Shown in pieces: positions 12,225-60,976 of a stretch of DNA of 64,000 bases; the stretch's first letter is position 1; every line of letters starts with the position of its first letter. The DNA lies in contig NZ_JABBXA010000001.1 of NCBI RefSeq assembly GCF_014161445.1, positions 372,001-436,000 of the forward strand. Reading direction: 5' to 3'. This DNA is from Microbispora sp. H13382. Its GTDB lineage: Bacteria; Actinomycetota; Actinomycetes; Streptosporangiales; Streptosporangiaceae. The notes below the pieces were generated by a model, which was not told where the DNA came from, did no database searches, and saw only the letters and a list, made by a program, of their open reading frames with translations. The translations under genes were made by a program, and so were the position numbers.

Positions 12225-14963
12225 ATGCGAAGATTCGCATCCATGCTCGTGGTCGCCGCCGTGGCCCTGGTCACGGCCGTGATCAGAATGTCCCCGGTGT
12301 CGGCCGTCGCCGCCGACCCGTACACGTTCAAGAACGTGCAGATCGCCGGGGGCGGCTTCGTCCCCGGCATCGTGTTCAGCCAGGCCCAGAAGGACCTGAT
12401 CTACGCCCGTACCGACATCGGCGGCGCGTACCGGTGGAACCAGTCGTCCCAGACCTGGACGCCGCTGCTCGACTGGGCCGGTTGGTCCAACTGGGGCTAC
12501 AACGGCGTCGCCAGCATCGCCGCCGACCCGGTGGACGCCAACAAGGTGTACGCCGCCGTCGGCATGTACACCAACAGCTGGGACCCCAACAACGGCGCGA
12601 TCCTGCGCTCGTCGAACAAGGGCGACACCTGGCAGGTGACCCCGCTGCCGTTCAAGCTGGGCGGCAACATGCCGGGCCGCGGCATGGGCGAGCGCCTCGC
12701 CGTGGACCCGAACAAGAACAGCGTCCTGTACTTCGGCGCGCCCAGCGGCAACGGCCTGTGGCGGAGCACCGACTCCGGCGCCACCTGGTCGAAGGTGACC
12801 AACTTCCCCAACGTCGGCAACTACGTCGCCAGCCCCGGGGACGCCTACAACGGTGACAACCAGGGCGTCGTCTGGGTGACCTTCGACAAGCGCACCGGCA
12901 CGTCGGGCAACGCCACCCAGACCATCTACGTGGGCGTGGCCGACAAGAGCAACACCGTCTACCGCACCACCAACGGCGGCACCTCGTGGGAGCGGGTCGC
13001 CGGGCAGCCCACCGGCTACATCGCCCACAAGGGCGTGCTCGACACGGCCAACGGCTACCTCTACATCGCCACCAGCGACACCGGCGGCCCGTACGACGGC
13101 GGCAAGGGCGACGTGTGGCGCTACGCCACCGCCACCGGCACCTGGACCCAGATCAGCCCGATCCCGTCCAGCAGCGGCGACGACTACTTCGGCTACAGCG
13201 GCCTGACCATCGACCGGCAGAACCCGAAGACCGTCATGGTCGCCACCCAGGTCTCCTGGTGGCCCGACGCGATCTTCTTCAGGAGCACCGACAGCGGCGC
13301 GACCTGGACCCGCATCTGGGACTGGACGTCCTACCCGGACCGCAGCTTCCGCTACAAGATGGACATCTCCGCCGCGCCGTGGCTGACCTTCGGGACCAAC
13401 CCCCAGCCGCCGGAGGTCACGCCCAAGCTGGGCTGGATGAACGAGTCGGTGGAGATCGACCCGTTCAACTCCGACCGGATGATGTACGGCACCGGCGCGA
13501 CGATCTACGGCACCACCGACCTCACCAAGTGGGACTCGGGCGGCCAGTTCACGATCAAGCCGATGGTGAAGGGCCTGGAGGAGACCGCCGTCCTCGATCT
13601 GATCAGCCCGCCGAGCGGCGCCCCGCTGGTCAGCGCGCTCGGTGACATCGGCGGCTTCCGGCACACCAACCTCGACGCCGTGCCGTCCATGATGTTCACC
13701 CAGCCTGTCTTCACCTCCACGACCTCGCTCGACTACGCCGAGACCAACCCGAGCGTGATGGTGCGGGCCGGCAACTTCACCGACTCCGACCGGCCGAACG
13801 ACAGCCACGTGGCGTTCTCGACCGACGGCGGGGCCAACTGGTTCCAGGGCAGCGAACCGGGCGGGATCAACAGCGGCGGCACGGTCGCCGCGGCGGCCGA
13901 CGGCAGCCGTTTCGTGTGGGCGCCGGGCGACCCCGGCATCCAGGTCGTCTACTCCGTCGGCTACGGCAACAGCTGGACCGCCTCCAGCGGCGTTCCGGCC
14001 GGCGCGATCGTCGAGTCCGACCGGGTGAACGCGCAGAAGTTCTACGCCTTCTCCGGCGGCAAGTTCTACGTGAGCACCAACGGCGGCGCGAGCTTCAGCG
14101 CCACCGCCGCGACCGGGCTGCCGACGACCGGTGTGCACTTCAAGGCGCTGCCCGGCAAGGAGGGCGAAGTCTGGCTGGCCGGCGAGGGCGGCCTGTGGCA
14201 CTCCACCAACTCGGGCGCCTCGTTCACCAAGCTGTCGAACGTCAGCAGCTCGATCAACATCGGTTTCGGCAAGGCGGCGCCCGGCAAGACGTACCAGGCC
14301 CTCTACCTCATGGGCACCGTGGACGGCGTGCAGGGCCTGTTCCGGTCCGACGACACCGGCGCGAGCTGGGTGCGCATCAACGACGACCAGCACCAGTACG
14401 GCAACGCGGGCGAGGCCCTGACCGGCGACCCGCGGATCTACGGCCGGGTCTACCTCGGCACCAACGGCCGGGGCATCATCTACGGCGACCGCAACGGCGG
14501 AACCTCGCCGTCCCCCTCGCCGTCGGCGTCCCCGTCCACGTCGCCTTCGGCCAGCCCGTCCGCGTCCCCGTCGGCTTCTCCGTCGGCGTCGCCGTCCGCC
14601 TCGCCCTCGGCCAGCCCGTCCGCCTCGCCTTCGGCGAGCCCGTCGGGTGGCGGCGGCAAGGCGTGCTCGGCGACCTACAAGGTGGCCAACCAGTGGCCGG
14701 GCGGCTTCCAGGGCGAGGTCACGGTGAAGAACACCGGCAGCGTCCCGATCAGCGGCTGGAGCGTCAAGTGGGCCTTCGCCAACGGCCAGTCGATCAGCCA
14801 GCTCTGGAACGGCACGGTCAGCCAGTCCGGGGCGAACGTCACGGTGACGAACGTGAGCTACAACGGCTCGGTCGGCTCCGGGGCGTCCACCACGTTCGGG
14901 TTCCAGGCGAGCTGGAACGGCACCAATGCCGTCCCGTCGCCGGTGACCTGCACCGCCTCGTGA
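12225..14963 (+). CDS. secreted xyloglucanase, GH74 with C-terminal CBM2
   Basis: Endo- or oligo-xyloglucan hydrolase acting on plant cell-wall xyloglucan outside the cell. A signal peptide covers about residues 1-30. Two seven-bladed propellers of GH74 follow, with BNR/Asp-box-like repeats (STDSGATW, TTNGGTSW, STNSGASF). The catalytic Asp residues are probably in RTDIGGAYRW (about residue 65) and GDIGGFRH (about 475). A Ser/Pro/Ala linker spans residues 760-810, then a CBM2 cellulose-binding module (residues 811-912) with conserved Trp residues in NQWPGGFQG, SGWSVKW and QASWNG. The ATG at 12225 has GGAGGG upstream. 912 residues is normal for this architecture. It is monocistronic with its own terminator. 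Confidence 0.93.
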   Translation: MRRFASMLVVAAVALVTAVIRMSPVSAVAADPYTFKNVQIAGGGFVPGIVFSQAQKDLIYARTDIGGAYRWNQSSQTWTPLLDWAGWSNWGYNGVASIAADPVDANKVYAAVGMYTNSWDPNNGAILRSSNKGDTWQVTPLPFKLGGNMPGRGMGERLAVDPNKNSVLYFGAPSGNGLWRSTDSGATWSKVTNFPNVGNYVASPGDAYNGDNQGVVWVTFDKRTGTSGNATQTIYVGVADKSNTVYRTTNGGTSWERVAGQPTGYIAHKGVLDTANGYLYIATSDTGGPYDGGKGDVWRYATATGTWTQISPIPSSSGDDYFGYSGLTIDRQNPKTVMVATQVSWWPDAIFFRSTDSGATWTRIWDWTSYPDRSFRYKMDISAAPWLTFGTNPQPPEVTPKLGWMNESVEIDPFNSDRMMYGTGATIYGTTDLTKWDSGGQFTIKPMVKGLEETAVLDLISPPSGAPLVSALGDIGGFRHTNLDAVPSMMFTQPVFTSTTSLDYAETNPSVMVRAGNFTDSDRPNDSHVAFSTDGGANWFQGSEPGGINSGGTVAAAADGSRFVWAPGDPGIQVVYSVGYGNSWTASSGVPAGAIVESDRVNAQKFYAFSGGKFYVSTNGGASFSATAATGLPTTGVHFKALPGKEGEVWLAGEGGLWHSTNSGASFTKLSNVSSSINIGFGKAAPGKTYQALYLMGTVDGVQGLFRSDDTGASWVRINDDQHQYGNAGEALTGDPRIYGRVYLGTNGRGIIYGDRNGGTSPSPSPSASPSTSPSASPSASPSASPSASPSASPSASPSASPSASPSGGGGKACSATYKVANQWPGGFQGEVTVKNTGSVPISGWSVKWAFANGQSISQLWNGTVSQSGANVTVTNVSYNGSVGSGASTTFGFQASWNGTNAVPSPVTCTAS

Positions 14964-15934: not shown

Positions 15935-17992
15935 ATGGCGATCGGAGTTTACGTCGCGGCCGGCGACGCGAGGAGCAACAAGGGCACGATCGCCCTGGGC
16001 ATGATCGAGCTGCTGACCCGCCAGGTGGGCACGGTGGGCGTGTTCCGGCCGGTCGTCCGGGCCGGCCGCGAGGACAGCCTCGTCAACGCCGCGCGCAGCC
16101 GTTTCGCGATCGGCCTGCCCTACGGGATGTGCACGGGCGTCACCTACGAGGAGGTGCACGCCGACGAGGAGCGTGCGGCCGGGGAGATCCTGGCCCGCTA
16201 CCGGGCGCTCGCCGGGCGGTGCGACGCGGTCGTGGTGATCGGCACCGACTACACCGACGTGGGCGCGCCGACCGAGTTCGTGTTCAACGCCGAGCTCGCC
16301 GCCAATCTGGGCACGCCGGTGATGAACGTGGTGACCGGGCTCGACCGCACCTCCGACGAGATCGCCGCGGCGGTCGAGATGTCGCGCAAGGAGCTGGCCG
16401 AGCGGCACGCCACCGAGCTGGCCACGGTCGTCACGCGGGTCGCTCCCGACCTGGTCGACGAGGTCGCGACCCGCGTCCCCGCGTACGTCCTGCCGGAGGT
16501 GCGGCGGCTGTCCGCGCCGACGGTCAGCGACCTGATGGCCGCCTGCGACGGCGAGCTGTTCATGGGCGACGCCGACCAGCTCGGCCGGGAGACGGGCGGG
16601 CTGATGATCGGCGCGATGTCGCTGCCGAACATCCTGGAGCGCCTCACCGAGGGCCTGGCGGTCGTCGTCCCCGCCGACCGGGCCGCGGCGCTGGTGCCGG
16701 GGCTGCTGGCCGCGCACAAGGCCCCCACGTTCCCGGCCCTGTCGGCGATCATCCTCAACGGCGGGCTGGAACTGCCCGACGCGGTCGTCCGCCTGCTGAA
16801 GGGCATGGACATCCGGCTGCCGATCGTCACGACCGGCGGCGGCACGTTCGAGACCGCGACCAAGCTGTCGAGGGCCGAGGGCCGGTTCAGCCCGGATGCC
16901 AAGGGCAAGATCGACACCGCGCTCGGGGTCTTCGCCGAGCACGTCGACGCCGGGGCGCTGCTGCGCAGCCTGCGGGTCACCAAGGCCGCCGCGATCACGC
17001 CGCTCATGTTCGAGTACGACCTGCTGGACCGCGCCCGCGCCGACCGCAGGCACATCGTGCTGCCGGAGGGCGCCGAGCCGCGGATCCTGCGCGCGGCCGA
17101 CAGCCTGCTGCGCCGGGGCGTCGCCGAGCTGACCCTGCTGGGCGACGAGCGGGAGATCCGGCTGGCGGCGGCCACGATGGGCCTGGCCGTCGACGGCGCC
17201 CGCGTGGTCAGCCCGTTCGACCCGGAGCTGCGCGAGCTGTTCGCCGAGGAGTACGCCCGGTTGCGCGCGCACAAGGGCGTGACCGCCGGGCAGGCCCGCG
17301 ACATCGTCACCGACGTCTCCTACTTCGGCACGATGATGGTCCATCTCGGGCTGGCGGACGGCATGGTCTCCGGCGCGGCCCACACCACCGCCCACACGAT
17401 CAGGCCGTCGTTCGAGGTCATCAAGACCTCGCCGGGCGTCGGCGTCGTGTCCAGCGTCTTCTTCATGTGCCTGGCCGACCGCGTCCTCGTCTACGGCGAC
17501 TGCGCCGTCGTGCCCGACCCCACGGCCAGCCAGCTCGCCGACATCGCGATCTCGTCGGCCGCCACGGCCGCCAGGTTCGGGGTCGAGCCGCGCGTGGCCA
17601 TGCTGTCGTACTCGACCGGCGAGTCCGGCGCGGGGCCCGAGGTGGACAAGGTGCGCGAGGCCACCGCGCGGGTCCGCGAGCTGCGGCCGGACCTGCCGGT
17701 CGAGGGCCCCATCCAGTACGACGCGGCGGCCGAGCCGAGCGTGGCGCGGACCAAGATGCCCGGCAGCGCGGTGGCCGGGCGGGCCACGGTGTTCGTGGTG
17801 CCCGACCTCAACACGGGCAACAACCTCTACAAGGCTGTGCAGCGCAGCGCGGGCGCGGTCGCGATCGGGCCGGTCCTGCAGGGCCTGCGCAAGCCGGTCA
17901 ACGACCTGTCCCGCGGCGCGACCGTGGGCGACATCGTCAACACCGTCGCGATCACGGCCATCCAGGCGCAGGCGCACGGGGAGACACAGTGA
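15935..17992 (+). CDS. pta: phosphate acetyltransferase
   Basis: Converts acetyl-CoA and phosphate to acetyl phosphate and CoA in the cytosol, and with ackA forms the acetate node. The 685-residue long form is present: N-terminal P-loop-like AAA_26 domain (about 1-190), DRTGG regulatory domain (about 205-320) and C-terminal PTA catalytic domain (about 365-685), with HIVLPEG, HTTAHTIRPSFEVIKT and VFVVPDLNTGNNLYKA motifs. The N-terminal glycine loop is modified (GDARSNKGT in place of GSxxGKS), a common variant. The ATG at 15935 follows a GGGGTGA site. The stop overlaps a GTG that starts a chain of tiny reading frames before ackA. Confidence 0.96.
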   Translation: MAIGVYVAAGDARSNKGTIALGMIELLTRQVGTVGVFRPVVRAGREDSLVNAARSRFAIGLPYGMCTGVTYEEVHADEERAAGEILARYRALAGRCDAVVVIGTDYTDVGAPTEFVFNAELAANLGTPVMNVVTGLDRTSDEIAAAVEMSRKELAERHATELATVVTRVAPDLVDEVATRVPAYVLPEVRRLSAPTVSDLMAACDGELFMGDADQLGRETGGLMIGAMSLPNILERLTEGLAVVVPADRAAALVPGLLAAHKAPTFPALSAIILNGGLELPDAVVRLLKGMDIRLPIVTTGGGTFETATKLSRAEGRFSPDAKGKIDTALGVFAEHVDAGALLRSLRVTKAAAITPLMFEYDLLDRARADRRHIVLPEGAEPRILRAADSLLRRGVAELTLLGDEREIRLAAATMGLAVDGARVVSPFDPELRELFAEEYARLRAHKGVTAGQARDIVTDVSYFGTMMVHLGLADGMVSGAAHTTAHTIRPSFEVIKTSPGVGVVSSVFFMCLADRVLVYGDCAVVPDPTASQLADIAISSAATAARFGVEPRVAMLSYSTGESGAGPEVDKVREATARVRELRPDLPVEGPIQYDAAAEPSVARTKMPGSAVAGRATVFVVPDLNTGNNLYKAVQRSAGAVAIGPVLQGLRKPVNDLSRGATVGDIVNTVAITAIQAQAHGETQ

Positions 17993-18057
17993 GCGCTGAT
18001 CGCGCAGGCGCGATGAAGAGCACAGTGAGCGCGCAGGCGCGGGAGGAGACAGGGTGA
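17989..18057 (+). CDS. possible leader peptide 1 between pta and ackA (22 aa)
   Basis: GTG at 17989 overlaps the pta stop (GTGA) and opens a 22-codon frame beginning MSADRAG and ending SAQAREETG. GGGGAGA lies upstream inside pta. Its TGA (18055-18057) overlaps the next GTG at 18054. Translation is inferred only from this coupling geometry. Confidence 0.35.
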   Translation: MSADRAGAMKSTVSAQAREETG

Positions 18058-18111
18058 GCGCGCAGGCGCGGGAGGAGACAGGGTGAGCGCGCAGGCGCGG
18101 GAGGAGACGCA
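18025..18111 (+). repeat. three tandem 29-bp copies of a translation-start module
   Basis: Copies at 18025-18053, 18054-18082 and 18083-18111. Each starts GTGAGCGCGCAGG and ends with GGGAGGAGAC plus four bases; the first two copies are identical and the third differs only in its last three bases (GCA for AGG). Each unit carries a Shine-Dalgarno site five to six bases ahead of the GTG of the next unit; the GTG after the third unit is the ackA start. A divergent older copy lies in the pta 3' end and the following bases (17970-18024). The unit length of 29 puts successive starts in different frames. Confidence 0.9.
18054..18086 (+). CDS. possible leader peptide 2 (10 aa)
   Basis: GTG at 18054 with GGGAGGAG at 18041-18048 opens the frame MSAQAREETG, ending in a TGA at 18084-18086 that overlaps the next GTG. 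It has a good ribosome site, but no other evidence for translation. Confidence 0.35.
   Translation: MSAQAREETG

Positions 18112-18115
<4 letters not shown>
18083..18115 (+). CDS. possible leader peptide 3 (10 aa) coupled to ackA
   Basis: GTG at 18083 with GGGAGGAG at 18070-18077 opens MSAQAREETQ. Its TGA at 18113-18115 overlaps the ackA GTG at 18112, so termination here could feed ackA initiation. Confidence 0.38.
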
Positions 18116-19290
<1,175 letters not shown>

Positions 19291-59470: not shown

Positions 59471-60976
59471 GTGGGAATGCACAACGCGCCCGTGCCGGGG
59501 AACGAGGAGCCCGGCCCGTGGCCCGGCGGCCTGACATCGGGAGCCGAGACGGCACCCATGCCGAAGCCGGTCGGCCCCGAGGCCCGCGGCGGCGCGCCCG
59601 GCGAGTACGACTGGTTCGGCGGCCCCGGGGCCACGGGAGAGACGTCCGTCCTGCCCGCCGCCGATGGTGGGGGACAGGACGACACGCTGACCGGGCCCGT
59701 CCGCGTGCCCGGTGACCCGCTCCGTGACCCGCTGCCCGGGGCCGGAGGTGTGCCGGGTGACCCTGGTGGCGCCGGCCGGTTCGACGACCCGCTCGGCGTG
59801 CCTCTTGTGCCTTATGAGTCCGTCGATCCCCTGGGCGTGGGCGGTGTGCCCGTCGAGCCGGTCGATCCCCTCGGCGTGCCCGATGACCCGCTCCGTGACC
59901 CGCTTCGTGACCCGCTGCCCGGGGCCGGAGGTGTGCCGGGTGAGCCTGACGGCGCCGGCCGGTTCGACGACCCGCTCGGCCTGCCCGGACCCGATGGCGT
60001 TCCCGGGGCCCCGCCCGCTCCCGCTCTGGCCGGTGAGCCGGTGGAGCCTGTCGCGCCCGACATGCCCGGAGTGCCCGGCGCCCCGGCCGTGGACGGGACG
60101 GAAGGGCCGGTTGACGGGGCGGTTGACGTGCCTCCCGCCCCGCCCGGCCCTGCGGAGCCGAGGGCGGCCAGGGGGACCACGATCGCCCTCGTCGTCGCCC
60201 TCGTGCTGGTGGTCGTCATGTCCGGCGCCCTCGGCGCCGTCGCCGTGATGATGACCCGCAACCCGGACGCCCCGCCGCTCAAGCAGACATCCGTACGCAC
60301 CCTGCTGACGCCGGTGCACTTCGCTCCGGTCACCGGGGTGGGTCCGGCGCCGTGCACCGGGACGGACGCGATCCCGGACGACAAGGGCGCTTCCTGCTAC
60401 CAGCTCGACCCGGGGGTCACGGTCACGACCGTGCAGAAGATCGAGGAGGTGCCGGAGAACGACGGCACCTACTCGATCCGGCTCGTGCTGTCCCCCTCCA
60501 GCCAGGAGCAGATCGCCGCGCTCACCCGTGAGACGGTCAAGCAGCAACTCGCCGTCGTGGTGGGGGAGAAGGTGGTGGCCGCCCCGCGGGTCGCCCAGGA
60601 GATCACCCAGGACAGTCTCGGCATCTCGGGCTTCGACAAGGCGCAGGCCGACGCGATCATGGCGCTGCTGACCGGCTCCGCCCCCGCGGGACAGCAGCCG
60701 AACCCGGCCGCCTCGCCCTCCGCCGCCGACGCCGGGCAGCCGGGTGGCACACAGCCGGACGGCACCCAGCAGGGCGGTACGCAGCCCGGTGGCGGGACCC
60801 AGCCGGATGGCACGCAGCAGGGCGGCACGCAGCCGGATGGCACGCAGCCGGATGGCACGCAGCAGGGCGGCACGCAGCCCGGTGGCACGCAGCAGGGCGG
60901 TACGCAGCCGGATGGCACGCAGCCCGGTGGCACGCAGCAGGGCGGGGGCCAGCCCAGCATCGAGCAGTTCCAGTGA
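59471..60976 (+). CDS. repeat-rich membrane protein with SecDF-P1-head-like domain
   Basis: A 501-residue protein in four parts. Residues 1-235 are a Pro/Gly/Asp-rich cytosolic region with DPLRDPLPGAGGVPG and GRFDDPLG blocks duplicated. A membrane helix covers 236-262. An extracytoplasmic domain at about 270-395 resembles the SecDF P1 head (CYQLDPGVTVTTVQKIEEV, YSIRLVLSPSSQEQIAALT, VVVGEKVVAAPRVAQEI). Residues 400-501 consist of GGTQPDGTQQ-type repeats. The rest of SecD is absent, so it is not a translocase subunit. The GTG at 59471 or ATG at 59477 starts it. Confidence 0.8.
   Translation: MGMHNAPVPGNEEPGPWPGGLTSGAETAPMPKPVGPEARGGAPGEYDWFGGPGATGETSVLPAADGGGQDDTLTGPVRVPGDPLRDPLPGAGGVPGDPGGAGRFDDPLGVPLVPYESVDPLGVGGVPVEPVDPLGVPDDPLRDPLRDPLPGAGGVPGEPDGAGRFDDPLGLPGPDGVPGAPPAPALAGEPVEPVAPDMPGVPGAPAVDGTEGPVDGAVDVPPAPPGPAEPRAARGTTIALVVALVLVVVMSGALGAVAVMMTRNPDAPPLKQTSVRTLLTPVHFAPVTGVGPAPCTGTDAIPDDKGASCYQLDPGVTVTTVQKIEEVPENDGTYSIRLVLSPSSQEQIAALTRETVKQQLAVVVGEKVVAAPRVAQEITQDSLGISGFDKAQADAIMALLTGSAPAGQQPNPAASPSAADAGQPGGTQPDGTQQGGTQPGGGTQPDGTQQGGTQPDGTQPDGTQQGGTQPGGTQQGGTQPDGTQPGGTQQGGGQPSIEQFQ
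59713..59980 (+). repeat. in-gene direct repeat encoding DPLRDPLPGAGG blocks
   Basis: A block of about 85 bp (59713-59797) recurs with small changes, including one additional GACCCGCTTCGT unit, at 59884-59980 in the same frame. It encodes the Pro/Gly/Asp-rich cytosolic region of the SecD-head-like protein. Confidence 0.75.
60740..60955 (+). repeat. coding tandem repeats GGTQPDGTQQ
   Basis: Units of 12-30 bp built from GGCACGCAGCCGGATGGC and CAGCAGGGCGGC variants repeat in frame over about 215 bp, giving a Gly/Thr/Gln-rich tail. Repeat length varies, and they code, so this is not a CRISPR array. Confidence 0.85.

Follow-up and report, generated by a model that had tools for sequence, protein, structure and literature searches.

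Among the closest described systems are the MIRUs of mycobacteria, tandem repeats of variable number between co-directed genes, with small open reading frames (ORFs) whose ends overlap the neighbouring genes and without dyad symmetry, as set out in PMC4473831. According to PMC12548453, MIRUs are apparently mobile and insert at start codons, and the MIRU ORF is proposed to be coupled at −4 nt, which probably limits the harm. The same review places the optimum for coupling in E. coli and Haloferax at −4 to +3 nt; by 30-40 nt, most studies saw little or none of it left, although one found it to reach much further. MIRU lengths of 77 and 53 bp are given for senX3-regX3 in PMC4213456. Loss of the ribosome site (SD) weakens reinitiation to an extent that differs between gene pairs, according to PMC6728339. 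Expression of a downstream gene in E. coli rose up to 20-fold when it was preceded by a synthetic short ORF that had at least 8-10 codons and a strong RBS next to its stop (PMC13255528).

The array described here lies between pta and ackA of Microbispora sp. H13382, within a stretch of 64,000 nt (the window). It resembles the MIRUs of PMC4473831, as they are outlined there, in being tandem, variable in number, placed between co-directed genes and made of small ORFs that overlap their neighbours; by our own arithmetic, the two senX3-regX3 lengths leave a remainder of 2 when divided by 3, as does its 29-bp unit. MIRUs are dispersed and appear mobile in these accounts, whereas the pta-ackA unit was found at one locus only; it is also shorter, lies outside the mycobacteria and resembles the local ends of pta and ackA. 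On paper, the array would work like a MIRU, but it is undispersed and is therefore not classed as one, in a comparison made with MIRUs by their description only.

Other systems are alike in part. The 4-nt overlapping gene pair that serves termination-reinitiation has the same form as the pta-ackA junctions of congeners with zero units and of 22 of 24 family loci, whereas in the array the junction has itself become the repeat and mini-ORFs separate its copies. The nfORF boosters engineered in E. coli, as PMC13255528 outlines them, share the short ORF, the strong RBS at its end and the stop beside the next start; they were placed upstream of a single target gene, whereas the pta-ackA array stands inside an operon. 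As in VNTRs or minisatellites, tandem units differ in number between close relatives (0 to 6 among 15 species genomes), but the unit is a complete start-SD-stop module, and the variation was seen between species. No earlier description of the pta-ackA array was found in the open-access literature, among the matches listed.

Anatomy of the pta-ackA junction

The pta gene (phosphate acetyltransferase, 685 aa; ORF at 15935-17992, plus strand; Pfam PTA_PTB 1.4e-124, DRTGG and AAA_26) ends with the TGA at 17990-17992, and ackA (acetate kinase, 392 aa; 18112-19290, plus strand; Pfam Acetate_kinase 9.3e-142) starts with the GTG at 18112, leaving a gap of 119 nt with the array between them. The tandem 29-bp repeat that the first-pass annotation had reported here was confirmed. 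Three units occupy 18025-18111, and TRF reported a repeat at 17997-18124 with a period of 29, 4.4 copies and a score of 177. In the whole 8.7-Mb genome, the 29-mer with up to 3 mismatches occurred at 3 places, all inside the array, and the reversed-pattern control gave 0, which makes this a tandem repeat beyond chance. These three places, and the restriction of a degenerate unit pattern to the pta-ackA junction in the nine congeners that matched it, led us to reject a dispersed element.

Each part of the array lies on the plus strand. The first unit (17989-18024) is a degenerate one of 36 bp, consisting of 7 bp and a 29-bp unit that starts with CTGATC instead of GTGAGC. Unit 1 (18025-18053) begins with the internal in-frame start GTG 18025 and carries a strong SD near its 3' end, unit 2 (18054-18082) is identical to it, and unit 3 (18083-18111) has 3 differences at its end, where its GGGAGGAG forms the ackA ribosome site at −12.0 kcal/mol. 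SD energies throughout are predicted for pairing with the 16S tail. A ribosome site of this sequence had been claimed for each unit; the exception is the site before GTG 18025, where GATGAAGAG, a weak SD of −2.3 kcal/mol, stands instead of GGGAGGAG. The 29-bp unit, GTGAGCGCGCAGGCGCGGGAGGAGACAGG, resembles the last codons of pta from zero-unit genomes (AQAREETQ), followed by a strong SD and the ackA start GTGAGC.

GTGA stop/start overlaps are present at 17989, 18054, 18083 and 18112, as the annotation had placed them, and the chain runs from pta to 17989, 18054, 18083 and ackA. An overlapping chain from pta through three GTGs to ackA thus exists, but GTG 18025 is not a separate link in it, being internal and in frame within mini-ORF 1. 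The piece after pta is 36 bp long, which puts GTG 17989 and GTG 18025 in the same frame; mini-ORF 1 therefore extends over 17989-18057 (plus strand; 22 codons, MSADRAGAMKSTVSAQAREETG), with its GTG overlapping the pta TGA and its stop TGA at 18055-18057. The product MSAQAREETG/Q, which had been assigned to every unit, holds for the other two: mini-ORF 2 (18054-18086, plus strand) encodes MSAQAREETG in 10 codons and its stop overlaps GTG 18083, and mini-ORF 3 (18083-18115, plus strand) encodes MSAQAREETQ in 10 codons and its stop overlaps the ackA GTG. Since 29 leaves a remainder of 2 on division by 3, the frame opened by each GTG runs into the TGA of the next GTGA and gives a 10-codon ORF. A frame entering the three perfect units is caught in every case, frames 1, 2 and 3 at the GTGA 18055, 18113 and 18084, respectively.

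The RNA fold of 17950-18150 was no better than those of shuffled sequences (z 0.04), and by eye a short self-complementary stretch, CGCG(CAGG)CGCG, was noted inside the unit. Rfam gave 0 matches in 17800-18300 at gathering scores. A separate promoter or terminator for ackA within the array was considered and dismissed, with 0 sigma-70-like promoter sites and 0 terminator-like sites in 17700-18300. Elsewhere in the genome, L019 (G000:C17:54912-55844) encodes a second acetate kinase homologue that is 52% identical, and such a second match occurred in 13 of 15 genus genomes.

Unit number and ancestry in Microbispora

The junction was compared among 15 genomes of the genus Microbispora, one genome per species and including the source genome (G000). 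The unit number, which the annotation had proposed to compare across relatives, does vary, from 0 to 6. Five genomes have zero units (G012, G001, G013, G004 and G007) and ten have 1-6: one in G011, in G002 (27 bp) and in G009, where it is absorbed into pta and the new pta stop overlaps ackA; two in G014 (29 and 27 bp); three in G003 and G008; four in G000 (36, 29, 29 and 29 bp) and in G005 (one of 30 bp); five in G010 (two of 30 bp); and six in G006, with the reservation that copy numbers from short-read drafts may be wrong, the single-contig genomes being G010 (5 units) and G013 (0). In G012, G001, G004 and G007, pta ends in ...REETQ or ...REETG and its TGA directly overlaps the ackA GTG; in G013 the two genes overlap too, after a longer pta tail. 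The mini-peptide AQAREETQ repeats the C-terminus of zero-unit pta in the same frame, and the repeat unit was probably derived from the last codons of pta with their TGA.

G004 and G007, the two outgroups that root a tree built from 2425 aligned coding bases, have no units. G014 (2 units) falls into a group with G001 and G013 (0 units), and the nine other arrays form one further clade, with a support of 59 only, next to G012, which has none. This distribution requires two origins, or losses. Between G000 and G006 the coding alignment shows 98.1% identity, but their unit numbers are 4 and 6, and no unit of the one recurs unchanged in the other.

Most family loci with a recognised pta have the plain form of the junction. 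Among the 48 family loci given (those of G004 and G007 and 46 others), pta was recognised directly before ackA in 24, and 22 of these 24 have an [A/G/T]TGA overlap of −4, with L065 and L066 as exceptions; in the remaining 24 no pta was recognised in the fetched stretch. The zero-unit congeners meet at a −4 overlap with the SD inside the upstream ORF, whereas for the family loci it is the overlap alone that was recorded. The family junctions that were inspected by eye showed no tandem array. When 341 family genomes were searched with a degenerate pattern for a unit and the start that follows it, 14 matched, namely the nine congeners mentioned above and five other genomes, the latter once each and with 2 mismatches. 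From these sequences, the array looks like a novelty of the genus Microbispora.

Ribosome sites and the stop-start path

The ackA SD had an energy of −10.3 to −13.0 kcal/mol in 9 of the 10 array genomes; in G014 it was −8.8 and the in-frame upstream GTG had −12.0. In the same genomes, the mean SD was −8.1 kcal/mol at the pta end and −7.9 at internal sites, and weak upstream SDs of −2.3 to −6.8 kcal/mol were found at sites of G000, G006 and G008; the five zero-unit genomes had −10.4 to −12.0 kcal/mol. The ackA SD differed from that at the pta end with P 0.049 in a paired comparison and from internal ones with P 0.008, and the pta-end SD differed between array and zero-unit genomes with P 0.021, all three values being uncorrected for relatedness. 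Against random-column controls, the 8 distinct proximal 29-mers had a stronger SD (P 0.015) and the 13 upstream ones did not (P 0.81); against controls with random bases in the same columns, neither group was stronger (P 0.27 for proximal and 0.23 for upstream). With these modest statistics, the ackA SD looks guarded and the upstream SDs released. This pattern favours passive reinitiation, or no use at all, over the loading of new ribosomes at each unit.

A strict path, in which every start between pta and ackA lies −4 to +3 nt from the preceding stop, is intact on paper in 15 of 15 congeners (13 of 13 by script; in G004 and G007 the two genes overlap directly). For G002 and G014, entry into ackA is by way of an in-frame start further upstream, and with the 27-bp units of these two genomes and the fusion in G009, ackA is still coupled on paper. 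When the same numbers of changes were randomised uniformly over the unit, a mean of 5.95 of 10 arrays stayed intact, compared with 10 of 10 observed (P 0.003). Variants of this randomisation gave P 0.0007 with random indel sign, and 0.016 and 0.005 under a looser limit of +12 nt; with one genome per sister group (G000/G006, G003/G002, G005/G010 and four others) and the values multiplied, P was roughly 0.008-0.03. When the mutated columns were kept and the bases and the sign and place of indels were random, 10 of 10 intact arrays had P 0.087. The evidence for selection to keep the relay is therefore mixed.

The distribution of changes along the unit did not separate the overlap from its surroundings. 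Minor cells made up 3/84 in the start-stop columns and 12/273 in columns 5-17 (Fisher P 1.0), and columns 18-29 were far more variable (78/252). With G009 left out, the path would be broken by 1.7% of substitutions in columns 5-17 and by 30% of those in the start-stop columns. Columns 5-17 thus vary as little as the overlap, yet the path seldom suffers from changes in them, and the relay cannot be given credit for the conservation of GTGA. Of single indels of 1-4 nt placed in silico in 9 arrays (G009 and the ackA SD excluded), 83-97% left the path intact. The path is therefore robust by arithmetic, and its persistence is easily explained without strong selection. For the same reason, the finding of 0 unit lengths of remainder 1 on division by 3 among 27 distinct units was set aside as weak proof of selection.

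The GC-rich half of the unit, GCGCGCAGGCGCG (18029-18041, 18058-18070 and 18087-18099), is nearly invariant except at columns 11 and 12, and the SD half varies freely. Selection on the peptide was rejected as the reason. The commonest changes in the GC-rich half, at columns 11 and 12, turn Q to R or H, and of the third codon positions, columns 6 and 15 never vary and column 9 varies once in 21 distinct 29-mers. As the columns that change amino acids vary and the third positions hardly do, the peptide does not look like the conserved thing. Something besides the relay keeps the GC-rich half; our guesses are a small hairpin of the CGCG(CAGG)CGCG stretch or slippage anchored there.

Origin and possible use of the array

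On balance, we regard the array as a minisatellite that was born locally, is kept harmless by the arithmetic of its starts and stops, and could relay ribosomes along its length; we consider this somewhat better supported than not. In the ancestor, the pta TGA would have overlapped the ackA GTG (GTGA), with the ackA SD inside the last codons of pta, as in an ordinary 4-nt termination-reinitiation junction. This module of pta tail, SD and GTGAGC would then have been duplicated in tandem within the genus, probably more than once, and we infer that the change ran from zero units to the array. With a unit of 3n+2 bp, the 10-codon ORF of each copy would end on the start of the next, and extra copies would thus leave the hand-over unbroken. 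Three perfect copies would present GTGA in all three frames, so that a ribosome in any frame would terminate on a start codon, at the latest on that of ackA. In the manner of a minisatellite, unit number and upstream SDs drift, with the ackA SD staying strong. The relay itself is plausible given that its structure is intact across the genus, and ribosomes would presumably pass along the chain with a mild effect on the AckA level.

The main competitor, a possible explanation to which we give about half as much credence, is an inert minisatellite, a mere spacer that slippage made and whose mini-ORFs came about incidentally with the duplicated sequence, while translation of ackA starts de novo at the strong SD of that gene. 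The ackA SD is −8.8 to −13.0 kcal/mol in each of the 10 array genomes, and at −12 kcal/mol it is strong enough by itself, so the relay may be unneeded. The drift of the upstream SDs, the nonsignificant path integrity once the mutated columns were kept, and the presence of another start-stop array without a recognisable coupled gene (L099, below) also fit an inert spacer. Against it, the path is unbroken in every congener, the uniform randomisation and its sister-group version gave low P values, and the 27-bp units and the G009 fusion each keep ackA coupled on paper. The first-pass annotation had instead proposed a tuning device; unit number would set the AckA:Pta ratio, by the loss at each reinitiation step, and slippage would make the ratio adjustable. 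Closely related species do differ in unit number (G000 and G006, above), and reinitiation below 100% per step would, by inference, grade the effect. The upstream SDs, however, were no stronger than in the random-mutation nulls and bear no sign of selection, the integrity of the chain was nonsignificant once the mutable columns were kept, zero-unit and six-unit species occur within one genus, and by eye the unit number does not track the tree. Tuning of AckA:Pta is thus unproven, without support in the sequences beyond the copy-number variation, and we judge it improbable. A ribosome-loading booster, in which each unit SD recruits ribosomes de novo for ackA and more units give more AckA, is less probable still. 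Mini-ORFs 2 and 3, with 10 codons and a strong RBS, resemble the synthetic boosters in the outline given by PMC13255528, but the upstream SDs are weak in G000, G006 and G008 and on average no better than the null.

Beyond the favoured reading of a harmless, locally born minisatellite, a general one can be entertained, which we think rather doubtful: a tandem 3n+2 duplication spanning a −4 overlap would create a self-propagating, frame-proof relay, a general de novo route to MIRU-like repeats in which copy number is an evolvable setting of gene ratios in operons. If this were true, any such duplication would yield mini-ORFs that hand ribosomes on, and at least three copies would catch all three frames. 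The occurrence of zero-unit beside many-unit relatives suggests how a variable repeat can arise from an ordinary operon junction, and how it can be tolerated when its length preserves the overlap of stops and starts. MIRU-type repeats would thereby have a simple possible origin, and the species form a natural series of 0-6 units in which consecutive reinitiation steps by the bacterial ribosome could be measured.

A scan for tandem start-stop units of 15-130 bp on both strands of 464 kb (the window and a further 400 kb) returned 47 rows, compared with 11 in the reversed control, and 5 rows with an SD, compared with 1. Four of these five are the pta-ackA array. The fifth is an ATGA array of 17/18-bp units with overlapping start and stop codons (ATGACGACCAGGAGC..) on the minus strand of L099, at about 12587-12523 (G000:C1:72523-72587). 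Its start coincides with the stop codon (12585-12583, minus strand) of a gene for asparagine synthase, and a terminator-like inverted repeat follows it, as judged by eye. No gene start lies at its end and no coupled gene was recognised; two overlapping ORFs beyond it (339 aa, on the same strand from 12418, and 974 aa, on the opposite strand) had 0 Pfam matches. Arrays of this kind may therefore come about without having a function. The 42 rows that lack an SD were spread over L098-L117 and the window. Two further repeats were noted in the window: a Ser-Pro repeat linker at 14503-14646, in an ORF of 925 aa that lies upstream of pta and by eye looks like a secreted protein, and a 45-bp (15-bp) tandem array at 60736-60945, with about 4.6 copies and a TRF score of 274.
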